Source: a virus. From it: 43,448 nucleotides of DNA. A model generated the notes under the pieces. It was not told the DNA's origin, did not search any database, and saw only the letters and a program-made list of their open reading frames with translations. The stretch spans positions 1-43,448 of the IMG/VR virus record IMGVR_UViG_3300032893_000110, one strand, 5' to 3'. The translations under genes were made by a program, and so were the position numbers. Positions 31,140 through 43,161 of the stretch are shown here, one piece after another; the first letter of the stretch is position 1, and the number at the start of each line of letters is the position of its first letter.

Positions 31140-31460
31140 TTAATGTAGAAGAAGGTACATCATGGCCCAGTTGACTGGGACTAACGCCAACAGCAATAAA
31201 GCGACTCTGTCTACGTTGACGTCAAACAATGATGACTTCTTATCCTTGTCCTTGTCGTCACCAAGCTGTTTCTTCAAGACTTTCATGAAGTCATCGAACT
31301 TGGCTCGACGCTGCTGCTCTTCCAACCAAAGCTCTTCCCATGACTTGGGTTTTTCTTTTCTTGTTCGCTCTGGCTTCTTGTCGTCATCTGGCTTCTTAGC
31401 CATCTGTTTCCCTATTTCTATTAGGGCTAATGCTTCTCCAAATCCAAATCCTTTGGCCAT
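31140..31460 (-). CDS. Charged protein with C-terminal membrane anchor (106 aa)
   Basis: ATG 31460 has a GGGAG site. The protein has an N-terminal helix (GFGEALALIEIGKQMAKK), a long, highly charged helical middle (KSWEELWLEEQQRRAKFDDF) and one C-terminal membrane segment (RVALLLLALVPVNWAMMYLL). It is the first gene after the structured RNA region and may share its transcript. No family recognised. Confidence 0.6.
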   Translation of the reverse strand: MAKGFGFGEALALIEIGKQMAKKPDDDKKPERTRKEKPKSWEELWLEEQQRRAKFDDFMKVLKKQLGDDKDKDKKSSLFDVNVDRVALLLLALVPVNWAMMYLLLH

Positions 31461-31499: not shown

Positions 31500-33050
31500 C
31501 TAATCATCTAATGTGAGGCATCGGCTCTGTCACCGCCTAAGCCCCACTAGTCTTATGGTGGCTGAGGCTGCATCACGATTGAGACTGATTTCATAGCTGT
31601 TACTCCTGCTCGTAGCACACGCTGATCTGGCGTGAATGAGTCTAGAAGAGGACGAACTACACGACACACGCGGTAGCCCCAACCATGTACTTCGGACAGG
31701 AACTAGTCGTCTTACTGCGTCTTACGTTTCCGATAGGTACTCGCATCCTTTCCCACATCGGTTAGTGTAGAACATCGATCAAGCTACCGATGAGTAGCTT
31801 TTGGTGTGCCTAAGAAACCTTCTGAGGTCATTCCTTCCACAGCTCTCTTGCTTGTAAGGCTAGCTGTAGGGTGTTACTCCACCAGTTGTAGCACGGCACC
31901 ACCTCCCCGATTTCGGGGCAACTTGGTCTCGGCGATCAACAGATCGCAAACCTTCATGTCATGGCTTCCGCTTTCGCACATACTGCTCATAGGCGACTAG
32001 TTTACCGAGGGGCTTTATTTCCACCCAACTAGTCTGTGCAGACAATGACATGACGCACTCTTGCTTCCAGCGAACTAGGGCCACCTGGGCTGCCGTCAGA
32101 CATTTAAAGCTTCGGCTCGGTCTTCTTGAGGCCTTCCCTAAGCTACAGCTTGCTTGAACAAGTCCATCAGTCCCGTGGGTTGGATTGAGGGTCCAACTTA
32201 GAGTTAAGCTACCATGGTATTCTCAAGGCCCTATGGTACGGCCTTCCTAAGTCAGCATTTATCTAGTGTCTACTTCTACGGGCTTCGGTCGGACTTGAAC
32301 CGACATAATCCAGGTTGCAACCCGGATGCCTTCCCGGCACAACTGGCATACGTCAGAGATTTCTTCACACCCGATGCACGGGTCGGTCGAGTTACACCAC
32401 CGTCTCTGCTTCCAGCAAGGTACTGTGTCTATTCGGCCACTCAGCGTAACGTCTACATTTCGACACCAAAGCCATTGGCACTCCACCTGGCATGACTGGC
32501 TTAGTACATATCTCTACAGCCTCTACGTTTTCTCTTAAGAGAGTTTCAACGAGGTTAGTATAGCGACAAGACTACTTGAGCTTGTCCCTGCAGGTCACTG
32601 CAGGTAATACCTGTAGGACGACTTCTGTTTGATTTCTGTCCAGGCCGTTATGCTAATGAGACATACGTACCTGTTGCGCTCGGACAAACTGCGAGGGAAC
32701 TAAGCTCTACCCACCGTAGTAGGAATTTCCCTACGCTAGCAGATTACCATCTCTCGATATCAGTTGCTAAGCTGGATTGTCGGTTCAGCGCTTAGTGCTT
32801 ACGCCCTTCCTGAAGGGGCCACTCTCACGGATTGGACACCGGTGTTGAGGAAGCGGTTAGGTTTCATTAAGCTAATGTGGTTAGGAGAGCTGGATGAGTA
32901 GACCAATTACGGCGGAGGTACTTCTCAGGCCAACCAACTCTCCCTCCCGAAACGGCGTTCGGCAGGTTGTCACTCACTTGGGTTGACTACCAACGGTCCC
33001 GTTGCTACGGGGACGGACATTCAACTTATCTAGAAAGAAGCTGCCTACTA
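31500..33050 (-). ncRNA. Candidate giant structured non-coding RNA (about 1.55 kb)
   Basis: No credible gene lies here on either strand, although genes elsewhere in the window mostly overlap. The minus strand, the same sense as all neighbours, folds into many local hairpins. Perfect stems (plus coordinates) include 31781-31787 with 31794-31800, 31837-31844 with 31862-31869, 31905-31909 with 31914-31918, 31932-31937 with 31942-31947, 31995-32002 with 32027-32034, 32179-32184 with 32192-32197, 32225-32230 with 32240-32245, 32565-32570 with 32581-32586, 32719-32723 with 32730-32734, 32767-32772 with 32790-32795, and 32884-32889 with 32938-32943. A GC-GAAA-GC loop and a tRNA-like core are present. 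GOLLD and ROOL are known large phage RNAs of about 800 and 600 bases, often beside tRNAs. Membership cannot be tested here; the exact ends are estimates. Confidence 0.65.
32281..32357 (-). other. tRNA-like domain without acceptor stem
   Basis: Read on the minus strand from 32350: T8 A9, a D stem TGCC/GGCA with a long 14-base loop, base 26 T, an anticodon stem CCGGG/CCTGG with a 6-base loop TTGCAA, a 5-base variable loop ATTAT, and a perfect T arm (GTCGG, TTCAAGT, CCGAC) ending at 32288. The bases at the acceptor positions (TCTGACG and CGAAGCC) do not pair beyond two base pairs. The anticodon would be GCA (Cys). With no acceptor stem, a shortened anticodon loop and no CCA, it is not a normal tRNA. 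It lies in the middle of the structured RNA region. Confidence 0.6.
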
Positions 33051-33053
33051 GCA

Positions 33054-33239
33054 TCAGTGAATTACTGACTGATAACCTTGGACGACATGTCCCATAATTC
33101 TTCCAAAGCCCTCTGGGAAGAGGACAATTAGAAATCCTATAAAACTTAGAGGAAGGTACGAATGTGAGACATGTACTTCGTGATTAGAATAGGAGTCGTA
33201 AGGCCACCCCCAATACCAATGCCATTTCTTTTCTTTCAT
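33054..33239 (-). CDS. Small membrane protein (61 aa)
   Basis: ATG 33239 has a strong AAGGAG site. The product starts MKEKKWHWYWGWPYDSYSNH, rich in Trp and Tyr, then has one membrane segment (YLPLSFIGFLIVLFPEGFG). It is the last gene before the structured RNA region, 9 bases after the ssDNA-binding protein. Function unknown. Confidence 0.6.
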   Translation of the reverse strand: MKEKKWHWYWGWPYDSYSNHEVHVSHSYLPLSFIGFLIVLFPEGFGRIMGHVVQGYQSVIH

Positions 33240-33248
33240 AATTACTCC

Positions 33249-33740
33249 TTAGAAGAGGGGTTTAGAGCCTGATCCTTTGGCTTCCTCTTTCTCGTACTTG
33301 TCGAGGTCCCTCTCGCTTTCGAAGGGGACGAGATTGTCGATGCGGGCACTAACCCAACGAATTGCTTTAGCCGTGCCACCGCCTGGTGTAGCATGTGAAT
33401 AAACCTCTAACTTTAAAGTAGCGTCACTGTCGTTACCGACGTTACCGTCATATCTATTTCCGTCTCGATCAAATACCTCGACGGGATCGAAGGATATGAT
33501 CTTACCAGTGGCAGTCTCCTTAGTGACTGGACGGGAAAAATTGCAATAATATCCATTGTCGTCTTTCTTCAGCTGGTTCTTACAACCCTGTGCTTGTAGA
33601 TCACGGATGATTTCAAGACCTTTAGCATCAGGATGGATCTGAGTGGACCACTTGTTCCACTTATTAGGAGCCTTGGTTCTAAACCAAGTCACCTTTCCAC
33701 TGATGTAAACGTACTCTGTTTTCTTAGCCAATGTTAACAC
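33249..33740 (-). CDS. Single-stranded DNA-binding protein, T7 gp2.5-like
   Basis: The protein binds exposed single strands during replication and recombination. The 163-residue sequence (YVYISGKVTWFRTKAPNKWN, IIRDLQAQGCKNQLKKDDNG, LKLEVYSHATPGGGTAKAIR, WVSARIDNLVPFE) matches the ssDNA-binding proteins of many podoviruses. It ends with a charged stretch and a terminal Phe (DKYEKEEAKGSGSKPLF), as in gp2.5, where the C-terminal Phe contacts the polymerase. The start is GTG 33740 or TTG 33731; both lie inside the end of the small gene upstream. Confidence 0.75.
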   Translation of the reverse strand: MLTLAKKTEYVYISGKVTWFRTKAPNKWNKWSTQIHPDAKGLEIIRDLQAQGCKNQLKKDDNGYYCNFSRPVTKETATGKIISFDPVEVFDRDGNRYDGNVGNDSDATLKLEVYSHATPGGGTAKAIRWVSARIDNLVPFESERDLDKYEKEEAKGSGSKPLF

Positions 33741-33864
33741 TTTCTTCTAGTTCAATATCTCTTTCAACAAGATCAATTAGATAATCCGTTTCGTCAGGTT
33801 CGAACTCTGACATACTGCTTCGGTATGCCTTCAATTCTTTAAGGATTAAATGCTTATCAATCAA
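33724..33864 (-). CDS. Small acidic hypothetical protein (46 aa)
   Basis: TTG 33864 overlaps the polymerase stop as TTGA, with GGAG 9 bases upstream, and the frame runs to a TAA inside the start of the ssDNA-binding gene. The product (MIDKHLILKELKAYRSSMSE at the start) is helical and acidic. The non-ATG start and small size lower certainty, but the position in a chain of overlaps supports it. Confidence 0.5.
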   Translation of the reverse strand: MIDKHLILKELKAYRSSMSEFEPDETDYLIDLVERDIELEESVNIG

Positions 33865-35798
33865 TGTGTCTTACTCCAATTGGTATCTATGGTGTAGTCT
33901 CTTGCTTTATCGTTCCAATAACTTCCAGCTAGTGGACATCTCAAACCCAACTCTTCACCTACCAATCTCAAGCTATCTGCTTGCATCTCTGCGATAGCTA
34001 ACGCTATCTTCATGTCATTAGGACACTCAGTTTGCCACTCATCGTGGACGAAGTTGACTAGCCTGGCATCGTAACTCTCCAGCTTTTGCCACCACTTCAG
34101 GGTGGCATTTTTCATTACGACTGCTTCTCCGTTTTGGAGATAGCCTGACATACAGAGATGTTTACGATAACTTACAGTATCTCCAGGTATACGAACTTTA
34201 CGTCCGTCTATCCCTATAAACCATCCTCGTTTGGCATCAATAGGAAAGACATTCTCTTGTAAATTACGAAGGCCCGGGTATTTCTCTAAGAGAGAAGAGA
34301 TAGCATATTCAGCTTCTTCTTTCTTACAACTCATAATTTCCGCTACCTTACCGGCCCCACCCCCAAAGAAAATAGCATAAAGGGAGTGCTTAGCTGCGTC
34401 CCTGGTCTTGCAGAATTCCCCAAAGTATTTCTTATTAAGAGAATGGGGATCAGTCCCATCGGATTTCTTACCATTGACGATAGCATCTGTTAGAACAGGA
34501 TCATCAATCATGTGAGCGAAGACACGAAGTTGGATAGCTTCGGCATCAACACCTATTAGTAATCTACCCTTGGGGGCTTGCCAGAGAGACCTTAATTCTT
34601 TTCCGTAAGGATTAATCTTACCGTCTGATACTCTAATAGAATTAGGAATGTTAGAGGTGTTAGGGTTTTGGTGGGCCATACGATGAGTCCAGGCGCCTAA
34701 CCCATAGAATTTACCATGGATACGCCCATCTTTAGCGTCTACTAGAGGTAACCACTCAGTTAACGTTCGACGCCTAGACTCAAGGAGGATACGCTTAGCC
34801 AGCAGCCTGGCACCAACTGGAGCGGAAGGTGGGAGAGTTTCTAGGTTGGCTTCGTTAACCTTCCACCCAGTTTTCTGTAATGTTCTAAGCTTTATGGCAA
34901 GAGTTTCTAGCTCCTGTTTATCTTTTCCGCGTTGTCTACTAAGTTTATTGTACTCACGCTCAGTATCCTTGTGGGTCTCAGTTTTGTCTACAGGTCTCCA
35001 GCCAGCTTCTCCAAGTACCTTAACGATCTGACTATGGCTTGAAGGATTAAAGTCAGACCAACTACAATATGTGAAAGGGGCAGCAATAGTAAGATCAGCG
35101 ATATCTTTACGAAGCGTCTTAGGTATGGAAGAAAGAGAGATAGTACCATACTTCGTCTCCCGCGGCGTGACCACTCTGATAGGTTTCAGCTTTGGCTGGA
35201 ACGCTTCCAGGATATCCTTGTCTAGAACTTCAAGCTCTCCTGTAACTTTTTCAAGGAGTTCTGTCGCTTTCTTAATATTGAAAGCAAAGCCATTGTTGTG
35301 CAGGTCGTTGCAAACAAGCTGAAATCTATGCTCAAGTTGAATAGATTTACGATGCTCGGGTTTAGAGATGTAATTACTATACTTACGATACACGCGCTCG
35401 CAGATATCGACATCGCGTATGCAGTAAGTTTCCATATCGATTGAATACTTATCGAAGTCATTGAATGTAATCTTTTCTAATCCAAACTCTTCTCCGTAGT
35501 TCTCTATGCTATGACCGGAGCGGGGATAGTCAACCAGTTTGGAGATGATGAGTGTGTCGATACAAGTATCAGGTTCATAATTAAACCCAGGATGAAGCTT
35601 AGCCAGAACAGGGAAGTCATAGCCCAGAATATTGTGGCCAATCCAAAGACTAACCCGTTTCGAATAAGTGATAAAGCTTTCAATATCGTTCTCTCTAAAT
35701 ATGCTGTATTCTCCGGTGTCAATGTCCTTGCAGACAATGACCCAGATCTTACTAGGGTTCTCTAACCCATTAGCTTCAATGTCTATTACTACTCTCAA
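33861..35798 (-). CDS. DNA polymerase, family A (T7 gp5-like)
   Basis: This is the replicative polymerase with proofreading. The exonuclease motifs are Asp6 and Glu8 (VVIDIEANG), IGHNILGYDFPVL near 53-65, and YCIRDVDIC near 125-133. Polymerase motif A is GVDAEAIQLRVFAH with Asp418, and motif B is RDAAKHSLYAIFFGG with Arg466, Lys470 and Tyr474. Motif C is HDE at 585-587. At 645 residues it is a little shorter than T7 gp5 (704). The steric-gate Glu of motif A (T7 Glu480) is Gln423 here. The nucleotide-selecting position equal to E. coli Phe762 is Tyr474, as in T7. It is preceded by a 111-base control gap. Confidence 0.92.
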   Translation of the reverse strand: MRVVIDIEANGLENPSKIWVIVCKDIDTGEYSIFRENDIESFITYSKRVSLWIGHNILGYDFPVLAKLHPGFNYEPDTCIDTLIISKLVDYPRSGHSIENYGEEFGLEKITFNDFDKYSIDMETYCIRDVDICERVYRKYSNYISKPEHRKSIQLEHRFQLVCNDLHNNGFAFNIKKATELLEKVTGELEVLDKDILEAFQPKLKPIRVVTPRETKYGTISLSSIPKTLRKDIADLTIAAPFTYCSWSDFNPSSHSQIVKVLGEAGWRPVDKTETHKDTEREYNKLSRQRGKDKQELETLAIKLRTLQKTGWKVNEANLETLPPSAPVGARLLAKRILLESRRRTLTEWLPLVDAKDGRIHGKFYGLGAWTHRMAHQNPNTSNIPNSIRVSDGKINPYGKELRSLWQAPKGRLLIGVDAEAIQLRVFAHMIDDPVLTDAIVNGKKSDGTDPHSLNKKYFGEFCKTRDAAKHSLYAIFFGGGAGKVAEIMSCKKEEAEYAISSLLEKYPGLRNLQENVFPIDAKRGWFIGIDGRKVRIPGDTVSYRKHLCMSGYLQNGEAVVMKNATLKWWQKLESYDARLVNFVHDEWQTECPNDMKIALAIAEMQADSLRLVGEELGLRCPLAGSYWNDKARDYTIDTNWSKTH

Positions 35799-35909: not shown

Positions 35910-36677
35910 CTAGTGGTAAATTTTCTCTTGTCTTACCCAAATCCAACTGGCGGGGGAGGGACCGAAGTCCCCCTCCTTTAGCCGTTCAAACATGTCTTCG
36001 CCTCTGGACACAGGGTCTACAACCACAAATGTTCCATCAGCTCGGAGCATCATATTTCCTCCATGGAGGTCGAAATTTACCACATCGGTGTTCCACTTCT
36101 CGCTTAGCTTCAGGAGGAAATCACTTAGTCCCGGAGCAAGCATCTCCGTGAACTTCCTTGCTATCTCATTGCTCTTGATCCTGTGAAGGATGTCAGGCAA
36201 CACCTTCAGGTTATGGTCTCCTGGAGTATTAGATAGCGTTACTTCCAATTTCTCCACCACCGCGACAGCGAAGGTGGCCTTAGCCCCTTTGATTTTCTTG
36301 TAGCTGAAAACCTTCGGAGCGAAATGACCGGCTTCCCCGATCTGCGCCGCCCAGTGGACGTAATTGATCCATCCATCAGGACGCCGGATAACCTTGATGA
36401 CACGGCTCTGACCCTCTTTGCCGAGGACAGTGCTGAATGCACCAACACCAAGCCGCTTGAAACCACGCTTCTCCAATGCCTTGATGAAACCATTGGCATC
36501 TTCGAAAGCTTTCTTCTCGAACTTACGGAACAGCCACTTGCGGTTTCCCTGGGCGAAGTCACGGTTCCATGATCGAATGTACTCTAACTTACCGACCTTA
36601 CCTTTACGGTTGTCAGTCTTTGTCATATTGGCTCTGAGCATGGCGTTAAACTCGCCCATGGCTCTGCCGAAATCCAT
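35910..36677 (-). CDS. Protein kinase-like enzyme
   Basis: Kinase-fold signatures are visible: a glycine-loop type motif GVGAFSTVLGKE, a Lys in SRVIKVIRR, the catalytic loop NFDLHGGNMML (Asp and Asn kept), and VVVDPVS at the metal-binding position. This fits a small Ser/Thr-type or phosphotransferase-like kinase, comparable in role to T7 gp0.7, which modifies host RNA polymerase and other proteins. ATG 36677 (MDFGRAMGEFNAML) is preferred because it follows the upstream stop by 19 bases; an ATG at 36758 would overlap that gene by 62 bases and add 27 residues. Confidence 0.7.
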   Translation of the reverse strand: MDFGRAMGEFNAMLRANMTKTDNRKGKVGKLEYIRSWNRDFAQGNRKWLFRKFEKKAFEDANGFIKALEKRGFKRLGVGAFSTVLGKEGQSRVIKVIRRPDGWINYVHWAAQIGEAGHFAPKVFSYKKIKGAKATFAVAVVEKLEVTLSNTPGDHNLKVLPDILHRIKSNEIARKFTEMLAPGLSDFLLKLSEKWNTDVVNFDLHGGNMMLRADGTFVVVDPVSRGEDMFERLKEGDFGPSPASWIWVRQEKIYH

Positions 36678-36696
36678 CCAACGTTTCTGGATGGTG

Positions 36697-37731
36697 TTAA
36701 TAGTCCCAGTGGGGATCGTCTTCTTCTTCATCCTCTTCAGAGGGTTTTTCCAGATCATCTTCGTGATCCTTCAGCTTCGGGAAAGCAGGACATCCCTGCT
36801 TTTGCAATTCCCTAACGATTGCGTTCAGTCCTGTCGTTGCTGATGTATCCATGTCTTTGAACAGGCTAGCTTTGATGGGCTGTCCAGCAGAAGAGATAGA
36901 GTAAATCTGCACTTCGTTATGAGTCTTGGATGCGGCCATAGACCCAGCACTGCCAAGTCCTTCGCCGATTTCCTTGAACTCATGATTGCGCTGCATATCT
37001 GCAAAGAATAGACCGCGGAACATCGCAGCATGCCCGAGACTGAAAGCTAGGCGATTGATGTCGACAGGGTGGTGACTTTCTTTCACCCTAACAAATTCAA
37101 ACGCAATAATACCGTTCCAAGTTCTTGTAGCCACAGTTGCGATGACTTCTACGGCAAATCCCTTGGCTTCGATCTCATCGATCAAAGCAGCAGTGACCGC
37201 AGCCTTGTTGGTGATCATCTCGGTATTGCAACCACCATTCTCACACATGTTGTAGACGAGAGTAATGGTTTTCTTCTTCCTCTGCGCCGAGGGTTTCGGC
37301 TGGCGCATATTGAGAAGATTGCCGGCGATAGCGCGGGGAACATTAGGAGTTGTCCCCGCGATACCATATTTCACAAGTTTGGGAGAGAGCGGATTTAAGG
37401 CCTTGACGTAGCCTCGTGTCTTTTCAATGAGCGCGCCGCCCTCTGCCCAACCGTGAATTGCCATATCCAATGCTTCATCAAAGGAGTCGCAACCGTTGAA
37501 GCTTTTGCTCCAATCGTTGCGGACGTTGCGGTGTGCCCACCACTTCGAGCCGTTGTCTCCTTTGAATTGTCTTGCAAATACTTCAATGGAAGACCAACTC
37601 GCGATGATCTGCTTATGGTGCCTAGGATCCTTGTTCGGTTCAGCATTCACAAGCATCAGTCGTGTCAAGTCCGGGGCATCCCCGATCTCGACAGTGAGGA
37701 GGGGATTACCCCCTCCGCTGTCTTCGGTCAT
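36697..37731 (-). CDS. Putative vWA-like partner of the AAA+ ATPase (344 aa)
   Basis: The protein follows the AAA+ gene by two bases with an AGAGGAAG site. Patterns such as GCDSFDEALDMAIHGWAEGG and KTITLVYNMCENGG, then HPVDINRLAFSLGHAAMFRG, are known to me from phage proteins encoded next to CobS/MoxR-type ATPases. The second half looks like a von Willebrand A-type fold without a full DxSxS metal site. The C-terminus is very acidic (EKPSEEDEEEDDPHWDY). By analogy with CobS-CobT or MoxR-vWA pairs, it may present substrates to the ATPase. The target is unknown. Confidence 0.6.
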   Translation of the reverse strand: MTEDSGGGNPLLTVEIGDAPDLTRLMLVNAEPNKDPRHHKQIIASWSSIEVFARQFKGDNGSKWWAHRNVRNDWSKSFNGCDSFDEALDMAIHGWAEGGALIEKTRGYVKALNPLSPKLVKYGIAGTTPNVPRAIAGNLLNMRQPKPSAQRKKKTITLVYNMCENGGCNTEMITNKAAVTAALIDEIEAKGFAVEVIATVATRTWNGIIAFEFVRVKESHHPVDINRLAFSLGHAAMFRGLFFADMQRNHEFKEIGEGLGSAGSMAASKTHNEVQIYSISSAGQPIKASLFKDMDTSATTGLNAIVRELQKQGCPAFPKLKDHEDDLEKPSEEDEEEDDPHWDY

Positions 37732-39057: not shown

Positions 39058-39134
39058 TGGTGCAACTCCCTGGATTTGAACCAGGAACCTTTCGATTATC
39101 GATCGAATGCTCTAACCAGTTGAGCTAGAGTTGC
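39058..39134 (-). tRNA. tRNA-Ile (GAT), with C33 and encoded CCA
   Basis: The cloverleaf is complete: acceptor GCAACTC/GAGTTGC, TA, D arm GCTC-AACTGGTTA-GAGC, A, anticodon arm TTCGA-TCGATAA-TCGAA, variable AGGTT, T arm CCTGG-TTCAAAT-CCAGG, discriminator A and CCA. The loop gives anticodon GAT (Ile). Position 33, almost always T, is C. All stems pair perfectly and the 3' CCA is encoded, so the gene looks functional rather than decayed. Confidence 0.9.
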
Positions 39135-40762: not shown

Positions 40763-41584
40763 TCAGAATAGGAGTGACGTATAGATGTTAGGTGACGTTG
40801 CCTGCCTTTTGAGTCCACCCAAGTCTGCTCCGGTAATGTTCGGAAGTACATTACCTCGAACCACACCTGTTGGTGGTATGTAACCTTGACCAATATCTCC
40901 TGGCTTGAACTCTTCATCTTTCAACTCCCAATCTACTGATCCTCGCCCGACTTCTCGGAGCCTGGCGTTGATGGTGCTGAAGAGACGTGACCCTGTGAAT
41001 GGAGTTTTACTAGCTCTAATGCCTCGTGGGCTTGGATGGGATGTTCGGATAATGCGATTGTTGCGAGGATTGATGAGGCTTTCGTTTCGAGCTGCGACAT
41101 TTCCAAGCAGAGCAAAGACAATCCCTCTATCAGAGAGCCGTGTGATGATTTCACGGGTGAGGTATCCCCATTCATCCCAATCGCAAGAAAGAGGCTGACC
41201 CGCTTTGCAACATAGTACGGAGTTCCAGAGAAGGACGCCTTGTTCCGTCCATCTGCTGAGATCACCTGAAGTCGGACTTGGCAATCCAAGATCTTTGGTG
41301 TATTCCCCGAAGATGATCTTGAGGGTGTGAGGAAACCGGCTTGGACCAACGTCTTTTGGGATGGAAAAAGCGACACCAGTTGCCATATCGACCGCAGGAT
41401 ACGGATCCTGTCCAATGATCGCAACTCGGACTTCTCTTTCTGGTGTTGCTGAAAGAGCCTTGTAGAGGAGGCCCTTGCTCGGGCTACACGCAATTCCCCG
41501 TTCAAAAAGATCATCGATCTTCTCCTCTGCTGCCTGGCGTTCGCCAGAGTTCCACCATCTTAAATCAGACCACGGGTGCGTCAT
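40763..41584 (-). CDS. ung: Uracil-DNA glycosylase, family 1
   Basis: The enzyme removes uracil from DNA by cleaving the base-sugar bond. The water-activating motif is IIGQDPYPA with Asp60, where family 1 usually has GQDPYH. The DNA-intercalation loop motif is HPSPRGIRA (183-186 for HPSP). VLLWNSVLCC and a late FSTINARLRE fit the fold. About 50 residues beyond the usual end (from about 222, with DIGQGYIPPTGVV and GLKRQATSPNIYT) form an extra C-terminal tail. The start overlaps the primase stop as ATGA, tying it to replication. Confidence 0.85.
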   Translation of the reverse strand: MTHPWSDLRWWNSGERQAAEEKIDDLFERGIACSPSKGLLYKALSATPEREVRVAIIGQDPYPAVDMATGVAFSIPKDVGPSRFPHTLKIIFGEYTKDLGLPSPTSGDLSRWTEQGVLLWNSVLCCKAGQPLSCDWDEWGYLTREIITRLSDRGIVFALLGNVAARNESLINPRNNRIIRTSHPSPRGIRASKTPFTGSRLFSTINARLREVGRGSVDWELKDEEFKPGDIGQGYIPPTGVVRGNVLPNITGADLGGLKRQATSPNIYTSLLF

Positions 41585-43161
41585 GCTGCCACCAATTGTT
41601 TAAGACGGAAGTCAGAGACTTCCTTAAAGTTGTCATTTGCAGGATAACCAATATCTTCGGATAATGTATACGTTTGAGGATCAAATAGTAGAGTACCAGC
41701 AGGACCAGTTCTTCCACAGAACCTATTCTTAGATACCATGAGATGCATTGTTCTGCGTATGATTGGATCGGCCGACTTGATATCACGACTGAGGTCGATC
41801 CGTATATCAGCGACTTTGCTGATGTTGCGTGATCCTCGTGTCAGACCATCATCATTGACATGTGAGACTAATATCAACGAGAAGTCTAGCGCCTTGACCA
41901 TCATCTCCAACTGAGTCGTGAGATAATCGAGAGCGCGCCGTTCATTATCGCCTCCCAATCCGCTAACAACCATTGAAACGTGATCCAGCAGAACACGGCG
42001 ACACTTACGCGCGGATACCAGAAATCTAATGGTGTCGATAATAACCTCAGGATCGTCTGATCCAAAATGACTATAGACATGAAGACGGTCATCCACCTGT
42101 ACCACACGACGTAGCGCTTCGAATGTCTCTTCATCGCTGACCCCACTATCAGGCAGATGTACAGGACGCTGTAGATCAATCCCGGCAATCGCCTGGAGCA
42201 AGCGTTTCTTAGGCTCTTCCAGGAAGATACAGCCGATTGGTTCGTCTGTCTGAGACAGGAGATTATGAAGGATTGCATGCATCACCTCTGTTTTGCCGAC
42301 ACCTTCCTGGGCAGTAACCAGAACACTCTCACCCGTTCGGATGCCATACGTCATGTAATTCAGAGTTGGCCATGGATAGCTGACGCCTTTCTTAGGCTCT
42401 TCCTTCAGTATCTTCTCAAACTCATCGAAGCCTGAAACGATCTGCTCAGGAAGGTAGCGCTTTGCGTCATGCCATAGCTGAGCTAGTTCGTCGCGTTCTC
42501 CGAACCGTAGGTAATCGTTGGCATCCTTCCGGTTGCCGCCGGGGAAACGGAGGACGTAGACTTTGTTGGGATCAAAGAGTTTAGCAACCGCCGCAGTTGC
42601 TCGTCGCCCGGCCTCGTCTCCGTCAAATGCGAGATATATTCTCTCGTATTCGTTAAGCCAGGATCTCTCCATGCCAGCATCAGTGCCAGCAGAAGAAGCA
42701 GATTTAACCGATACGACTGGCGAGCGCAGTACCTCGTAAAGCGAGAGTGCGTCCAGCTCACCTTCGGTGATGGTGATTGTTCGATGGGGGCTTGCAGCGA
42801 ACCGATCTCGTCCATAGAGTGTTCCCTTCTCGGAGGTTTGGCCCTCTGGATAATGCCAGAAAAATCCCTTCTTGTCCAAGAGCCTAACTTTATACGATTT
42901 TCCGTATTGGAACCCAATGGAGACTGGCTTGCCGGCAGGATCAATCTTAGTCTTTGCATCAAAGAACCTAAATGTATCCGCCGAGATACCTCGATGTGGT
43001 AAATATTCGTAGCTAAAACCTATCATTTCATCTCTGCCAGACGGCGTATAAGTCAGACAAGAGAAACAGTAACTGTGGCCATCGTCGTACTTACACAAGG
43101 CATCCGATGAGCCACAGTCTGGGCACGGTTGATGGAGTTCAATTATTTCCGACTTGGACAT
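41581..43161 (-). CDS. Primase-helicase (T7 gp4-like)
   Basis: One protein makes RNA primers and unwinds the fork. The N-terminal zinc motif has Cys13, Cys16, Cys32 and Cys35 (HQPCPDCGSSDALC, SYCFSC). The TOPRIM core follows (TITITEGELDALSL near 128-141, IYLAFDGDEAG near 175-185), then a DnaB-type helicase with Walker A AQEGVGKT at 284-291. At 526 residues it is close to T7 gp4 (566). The ATG has AAGGAATAA upstream and overlaps the previous gene by 19 bases. Confidence 0.9.
   Translation of the reverse strand: MSKSEIIELHQPCPDCGSSDALCKYDDGHSYCFSCLTYTPSGRDEMIGFSYEYLPHRGISADTFRFFDAKTKIDPAGKPVSIGFQYGKSYKVRLLDKKGFFWHYPEGQTSEKGTLYGRDRFAASPHRTITITEGELDALSLYEVLRSPVVSVKSASSAGTDAGMERSWLNEYERIYLAFDGDEAGRRATAAVAKLFDPNKVYVLRFPGGNRKDANDYLRFGERDELAQLWHDAKRYLPEQIVSGFDEFEKILKEEPKKGVSYPWPTLNYMTYGIRTGESVLVTAQEGVGKTEVMHAILHNLLSQTDEPIGCIFLEEPKKRLLQAIAGIDLQRPVHLPDSGVSDEETFEALRRVVQVDDRLHVYSHFGSDDPEVIIDTIRFLVSARKCRRVLLDHVSMVVSGLGGDNERRALDYLTTQLEMMVKALDFSLILVSHVNDDGLTRGSRNISKVADIRIDLSRDIKSADPIIRRTMHLMVSKNRFCGRTGPAGTLLFDPQTYTLSEDIGYPANDNFKEVSDFRLKQLVAA

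Follow-up and report, generated by a model that had tools for sequence, protein, structure and literature searches.

To our knowledge, very few structured noncoding RNAs in the size range of ~1.4 kb are known besides ribosomal RNA. Large RNAs of phages and prophages include GOLLD, of which many exceed 800 nt, and ROOL, which forms an 8-mer nanocage, both being often encoded near a tRNA island. Rearranged tRNA-like domains inside larger RNAs are familiar from tmRNA, which takes permuted, two-piece forms in some bacteria. Bacterial Y RNAs such as YrlA combine a tRNA-mimicking module with a basal stem that binds the Rsr/Ro60 ring protein. GOLLD assembles into a 14-mer cage and at times carries phage tRNAs in its linker, and the RNA-only cages of GOLLD and ROOL have prompted the question of whether large RNAs in nature commonly build cages (PMC12286853). 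In YrlA, DusA and TruB modify the tRNA-like domain, to which PNPase also binds (PMC8394870).

Here we report a structured RNA encoded in a 43.4-kb IMG/VR virus record (IMGVR_UViG_3300032893_000110), the whole of which (43,448 nt) we refer to as the window. Comparison with related phages establishes the RNA and its fold, the strand on which it lies, its presence at a single locus across a phage clade and its mimicry of tRNA. As a kind it joins the large ornate phage RNAs, from which it differs by its greater size and built-in tRNA mimicry, and the window-type RNA is larger than the giant phage RNAs described to date. Like GOLLD, it is ornate, combines conserved with variable domains and has tRNA-related sequence in its middle, but it shows no sequence or covariance match to GOLLD, measures ~1.4 kb, lies in a replication gene cluster rather than a tRNA island, and belongs to a family whose tRNA-like modules are built into the fold, often in permuted order, instead of being intact tRNAs. 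It resembles ROOL as a large ornate phage RNA without a known protein partner, and differs in having no match to it, in occupying another locus and in being more than twice the ~600 nt quoted for ROOL in an earlier reading of the window made from its letters (the sequence-only reading). With YrlA many relatives share a T-arm, a loop-closed acceptor-like stem and a D-arm, the anticodon side being joined to the rest of the RNA; however, their similarity falls under the cut-off of 69 for YrlA, the module makes up little of an RNA of >1 kb, and the permuted D-arm is not found in the window version. The rearranged tRNA-like domain within a larger RNA also recalls tmRNA, but ARAGORN finds no tmRNA and the acceptor ends of the permuted mimic are closed by a loop. 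By analogy, the best precedent for the function of the module would be YrlA, and for size and phage setting GOLLD and ROOL.

Genomic setting and extent of the RNA

Structural genes occupy the plus strand of the window (2006-28531) and a T7-like replication cluster the minus strand. The RNA runs in the same direction as the replication genes and is placed between the gene of a 163-aa protein, on the polymerase side, and that of a 106-aa protein:

41581-43161, minus strand: primase-helicase of the replication cluster
33861-35798, minus strand: family A DNA polymerase of the replication cluster
33249-33740, minus strand: upstream neighbour, conserved 163-aa protein following the polymerase, 59-78% identical in the nearest relatives
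31501-32877, minus strand: the structured noncoding RNA over its full conserved length, with homologues in L013 and L002/L135 and an interval at the same locus in 66 relatives
31140-31460, minus strand: downstream neighbour, 106-aa protein whose C-terminal part includes a hydrophobic stretch, 47-48% identical to its counterparts in L002 and L013
30109-30975, minus strand: Cas4-type exonuclease of the replication cluster

The 163-aa protein has no Pfam, PHROG or convincing PDB match, and our guess, from position alone, is that it could be an ssDNA-binding protein. The tRNA-island neighbourhood of GOLLD and ROOL is not seen here, the sole tRNA that ARAGORN finds in the window being a tRNA-Ile (39058-39134) ~6 kb from the RNA region, with almost none in the relatives.

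Alignment sets the ends of the conserved RNA at 31501-32877 on the minus strand, a length of 1,377 nt. The sequence-only reading had proposed a giant RNA across 31500-33050 (~1.55 kb), of which 31501-32877 proved conserved and 32878-33050 did not; the latter lies outside the conserved RNA, since in L002/L135 the RNA starts 10 nt past the upstream stop codon. A 61-aa ORF (33054-33239) and the adjoining 32878-33053, which contains some hairpin-like sequence, are without counterpart in L002/L135. The RNA start lies 7-11 nt past the stop codon of the 163-aa gene in L092, L095, L135 and L087, making co-transcription likely, and from this arrangement the RNA is probably co-transcribed and then processed. 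Scans for promoters and terminators gave no clear excess.

Coding potential and searches for known families

The longest ORF in the RNA span encodes 93 aa, a length reached by 59% of shuffles, and no ORF of >40 aa is common as a whole protein to the window and both close relatives. The earlier statement that the region holds no credible gene thus stands, and no protein match spans it, such a match having been named in advance as a finding that would overturn the RNA interpretation.

A cmscan of the window against all 4227 Rfam models returned a single match, to the tRNA-Ile at 39061. The sequence-only reading had proposed a search with the GOLLD, ROOL and HEARO models; carried out in the window and ~20 relatives, it gave no match. 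The RNA region itself has no GOLLD, ROOL, HEARO or OLE match down to E=10, these families are likewise not found in 13 relatives, and in L087 and six more none appears even at relaxed thresholds, membership of a family being defined as a covariance-model match at its curated score. At gathering and relaxed thresholds, Rfam yielded chance matches only, save a tRNA fragment in the window and YrlA in L041. Searches with blastn against 50,697 phages and 72,556 plasmids found no match to the RNA, and a literature search, with subscription papers and preprints mostly outside its scope, found no account of such an RNA in open-access papers. The RNA family is therefore new in having no match to an Rfam family, isolated phage or plasmid. 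Of the two options once offered for it, a new or a strongly enlarged class, the first is well supported by the combination of no Rfam match, strong covariation (below) and no spanning protein, and the second, an enlarged GOLLD or ROOL, is not borne out by Rfam in the window or ~20 relatives.

Relatives at the same locus

Searches of IMG/VR with the polymerase and exonuclease yielded >100 loci. At a polymerase identity of roughly 49% or above, the interval between the 163-aa gene and the exonuclease measures 1.5-4.2 kb where both ends are present, whereas at <46% identity the noncoding interval is absent or at most 1.15 kb. After removal of duplicates there are 66 intervals of at least 1.4 kb, so that ~66 related phages carry 1.4-4.2 kb at this locus, and the carriers form one clade of uncultured soil phages. 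Sequence change is fast: L013 and L002/L135 alone align well with the window by blastn, across ~1.4 kb in which some islands are conserved perfectly.

Covariation supports a conserved fold on the minus strand

Perfect local stems alone are no proof here, and the case rests on comparison. The density of folding on which the sequence-only reading had drawn is, when taken as energy, not above chance: mean z was -0.5 for the minus and -0.7 for the plus strand, compared with -0.7 and -0.8 for coding controls, and energy was dropped as evidence because neither strand showed an excess over dinucleotide shuffles. That the minus strand is structured was borne out through covariation instead, homologues having been gathered as had been suggested, and the signal is strong both in a group of nine phages and in a model transferred to the window.

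This second group (L087 and others) can be aligned over ~1.1 kb. RNAalifold predicts 240 pairs for the nine sequences with 91% of cells paired, 125 of the pairs showing double changes (reverse strand, 97). As this structure was derived from its own alignment, column shuffles are the control against which to read it, and in six of them 178-191 pairs were obtained, 25-38 of which had double changes. Folding is better for the transcript strand than for its complement, and a structure obtained from five of the sequences holds in 86% of the cells of the four left out.

A model of the 3' domain (R1), built from seven members of the nine-phage group, located minus-strand positions 31950-32056 of the window (E=8e-7) and marked none of the pairs there as non-standard. 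In a joint alignment (A5) fitted to R1, whose sequences exclude the window and L013, 93.5% of cells are paired and 16 of 21 pairs have changed on both sides, a value reached by none of 500 shuffles (slid structures, 25-45%). G-U pairs occur on the transcript strand of A5, which favours pairing in RNA rather than DNA. A further model, R2, matches the 3' domain at E=1.4e-13 and recovers L135 at E=2e-4; alignments A1-A3 were misregistered and left out of the models. Even within the window, L013 and L135 alone, dozens of helices show compensatory changes. Such changes beyond chance on one strand, our criterion for a structured RNA, are thus observed.

Exact DNA patterns searched in IMG/VR returned mostly chance matches, and of those scanned, the domain was present in L149 alone, whose contig L092 already represents. 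A search for hosts in GTDB genomes found a 46%-identical polymerase in a Ca. Dependentiae MAG contig (RXKB01000026.1, L197) and one weak match. L197 has no match to R2, and its polymerase may be either a hint at the host or a binning contamination.

Architecture of the RNA

From 5' to 3', the following parts were distinguished:

32792-32877, minus strand: 5' domain, CATTAGCTTAATGAAACC ... CCCTT-CAGG-AAGGG ... TAAGCACTAA, with a covarying closing helix (TTAGC/GCACTAA and TTAATG/CGTAA helices)
32649-32665, minus strand: hairpin with the family-wide 9-nt loop UCUCAUUAG (loop 32653-32661), in 24 phages
32587-32604, minus strand: 6-bp hairpin CCTGCA/TGCAGG, 5 of 6 pairs with double changes, 0 broken
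32328-32347, minus strand: tentative D-arm-like hairpin GCC-AGTTGTGCCGGGAA-GGC, within a sub-threshold Rfam tRNA match, not conserved in L013/L135
32308-32327, minus strand: anticodon-arm-like hairpin ATCCGGG-TTGCAA-CCTGGAT, 3 nt before the T-arm, stem variable with partial compensation
32288-32304, minus strand: tRNA T-arm mimic GTCGG-TTCAAGT-CCGAC, invariant in the window, L013 and L135
32072-32165, minus strand: helical arm, 32155-32165 with 32072-32083 (9 bp) around 32145-32149 with 32089-32093, double changes in 6 of 9 and 3 of 5 pairs, 0 broken
31950-32056, minus strand: 3' domain with a long stem, a GCACA/TGTGC stem, a covarying hairpin and CAGTATGTGCGAAA (R1, R2, A5)
31657-31770, minus strand: arm closed by CTACAC/GTGTAG (31765-31770 with 31657-31662), CTGTAA/TTACAG in L013, 3 of 6 pairs with double changes, 0 broken
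31618-31634, minus strand: hairpin CACGC/GCGTG (CCCTC/GAGGG and CCCAC/GTGGG in relatives), 2 of 5 pairs with double changes, 0 broken
31551-31561, minus strand: CCACCATAAGA, the form taken in the window by the CCNCCWUAA motif that the family shares near the 3' end
31501-31555, minus strand: 3'-terminal long hairpin TAAGACTAGTGGGG ... CCTCACATTAG..TTA, 22 pairs in the three-sequence consensus, 4 double changes

Several of these elements recur with altered sequence in other phages. The helix of the 5' domain is formed in the other phage group by GCAGT/GCTGC, ATAGC/GCTAT and GCAAC/GTTGC, and relatives replace CCTGCA/TGCAGG with CACGGG/CCCGTG and CCCATG/CATGGG. The hairpin with a UCUCAUUAR loop is found in 24 phages of several groups, the window included; across its 22 distinct sequences 97.7% of stem cells are paired and all 4 pairs change on both sides, with 0 of 500 shuffles matching either the paired percentage or the covariation score and slid structures reaching 28-46%.

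The CCNCCWUAA motif, whose counterpart in the window is CCACCAUAAGA, occurs on the transcript strand of 59 of the 66 intervals as against 5 of 66 on the reverse strand. In the form CCWCCUUAA, near the 3' end of the RNA, it bears a likeness to the anti-Shine-Dalgarno tail of 16S rRNA. That reading was set aside: U and A alternate at position 3, and the window reads CCACCAUAA, which makes a structural role appear the likelier.

tRNA mimicry

The tRNA-like core suggested by the sequence-only reading was right in kind, and consists of the invariant T-arm (32288-32304) and the anticodon-arm-like hairpin (32308-32327). T-arm hairpins, defined by 5 bp and a TTCRANN loop, number 92 on the transcript strand of the intervals and 3 on the reverse, with 14 in four times as much flanking DNA, and GGTTCGAGTCC-type words are the most widespread in the intervals. 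A hairpin similar to the anticodon-arm-like one, with a GTGAAA or GTGCAA loop, precedes the T-arm in L087, L088, L095, L102, L120, L036, L041 and L060. The Rfam tRNA model matches the window at 32286-32352 with 18.2 bits, under its cut-off of 29, and ARAGORN finds neither a tRNA nor a tmRNA in the RNA region of the window, where no complete cloverleaf is present. It also finds almost no tRNA in the intervals of the relatives, the clear one being a complete tRNA-Ile (GAT) gene within the RNA interval of L014 (9425-9496), which recalls the tRNAs of the GOLLD linker.

Many relatives have, after the T-arm, first a covarying hairpin and next a D-arm (TGGYG-N-AA..GG-ANAC-RC). This circularly permuted order is the one that a tRNA would have if opened at the anticodon and sealed at its acceptor end. 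A strict detector for the full permuted mimic proved too strict, with 8 matches, and a model of the module (R3) was used in its place. R3 has matches in ~20 phages, all on the transcript strand down to E=0.001, and in the relatives 9 of 14 pairs of the module have changed on both sides with 98.8% of cells paired. The permuted module was not found in the window, where only the T-arm half matches R3 (11.5 bits) and the arrangement is a D-like hairpin, the anticodon-arm-like hairpin and then the T-arm. The copy in L041 aligns with positions 23-89 of the Rfam YrlA model at 29.4 bits (E=0.0008 within the interval), and each of its pairs is a standard one; this best score lies below the curated 69 bits for YrlA, and the window has no such match.

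Two relatives carry insertions in the D-loop of the permuted mimic. In L106 (4170-4265) extra sequence is inserted and the D-arm consensus resumes after it (GGCGTAAT..AGGCAAACGC), and L080 (10250-10343) likewise has an insert after which the consensus resumes (GGCGCAATC..GGCAGACGC).

Proposed role and alternative explanations

We propose that the RNA represents a new large phage RNA class that would act in trans as a scaffold or decoy by means of tRNA-elbow modules, having been processed from the replication transcript, a reading to which we would assign a probability of about 0.5. As part of the replication operon transcript, the RNA would be freed from the polycistronic message by processing, fold into many helices grouped in three domains, the inner one, between the 5' and 3' domains, carrying tRNA-elbow (T-arm) modules, and serve in trans as an RNA scaffold. 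Its tRNA-like modules may engage elbow-binding proteins such as pseudouridine and dihydrouridine synthases, RNase P and PNPase-type nucleases, and their purpose during infection could be self-stabilisation, or the diversion or organisation of those tRNA-binding factors. Judged by sequence, trans action would not be separable from cis action, and T-loops may also be plain tertiary-structure motifs without a tRNA-binding partner. We advance more tentatively, at a little under even odds, the wider view of a new giant RNA machine or cage, near 16S rRNA in length and belonging to one soil-phage clade, with at least one tRNA mimic (permuted in many) and a trans role in replication, such as that of a decoy or platform for host enzymes that process, modify or cleave tRNAs. 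The embedded permuted mimic offers a concrete handle on function, namely whether TruB, Dus, RNase P or PNPase bind or modify it, and the RNA is a good target for structure work because it is sequence-independent of GOLLD and ROOL, larger, and available in ~66 divergent natural variants at one locus.

The alternative that survives best is a GOLLD- or ROOL-like nanocage, in which many copies of the RNA would form a closed, protein-free shell with the tRNA-like part in a variable or linker region. A very large, ornate, phage-encoded RNA with conserved 5' and 3' domains and a variable tRNA-like middle would be in keeping with this, as would the GOLLD 14-mer with its occasional linker tRNAs (PMC12286853); however, neither the window nor the relatives match GOLLD or ROOL in Rfam, and the tRNA-like parts are non-functional as tRNAs and woven into the covarying fold. 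We rate the nanocage as less likely than the trans-acting scaffold or decoy, though still a serious option.

Less probable still is a cis element, namely a huge structured stretch of operon mRNA that would separate or regulate the flanking genes through processing, stability or concealment of a ribosome-binding site. Its position between genes of the same direction, without a clear excess of promoters or terminators, its start 7-11 nt past a stop codon in several phages, and the ability of CTCCTT in the L087 group to pair with a downstream AAGGAG across an 11-bp hairpin in which 7 pairs covary are all consistent with such a function. Yet 1.4 kb with dozens of conserved helices far exceeds the needs of a leader or attenuator, the 106-aa gene is matched in only three relatives as against 66 with the RNA interval, and no such sequestering helix was seen in the window.

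A decaying tRNA array or patch of tRNA pseudogenes would account for many T-arm and D-arm sequences on one strand, but we give it very little credence, as ARAGORN finds almost no tRNA in the intervals (the L014 tRNA-Ile apart), the T-arm/D-arm order is permuted with covarying, loop-closed acceptor hairpins, and covariation across the whole span, including outside the tRNA-like parts, contradicts it. That the region is instead a protein gene that went undetected, or a DNA element (a replication origin, for example), as its place in the replication gene cluster might suggest, is just as improbable given the shuffle-like ORF lengths, the lack of a whole protein common to the window and both close relatives, the G-U pairs on the transcript strand and the better folding of that strand than of its complement.

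Additional observations

In L088, L095, L102, L084 and L120, a CCTCCTT before the next gene can pair with the ribosome-binding site AAGGAG, with a long covarying hairpin between them, and translational control of the downstream gene is possible in that group on the strength of this pairing. The window also encodes (35910-36758) a protein matching phrog_15752, a phage protein kinase annotated as an inhibitor of host transcription and regulator of RNase III and RNase E. The sequence-only reading had described a genome with almost no other gaps, which is not quite the case: a second ORF-poor, AT-rich stretch lies at ~690-1680, between a minus-strand gene and the structural genes. It contains repeated TACGTA/ACGTA palindromes at ~880-1030 and is possibly an origin or early promoter region.
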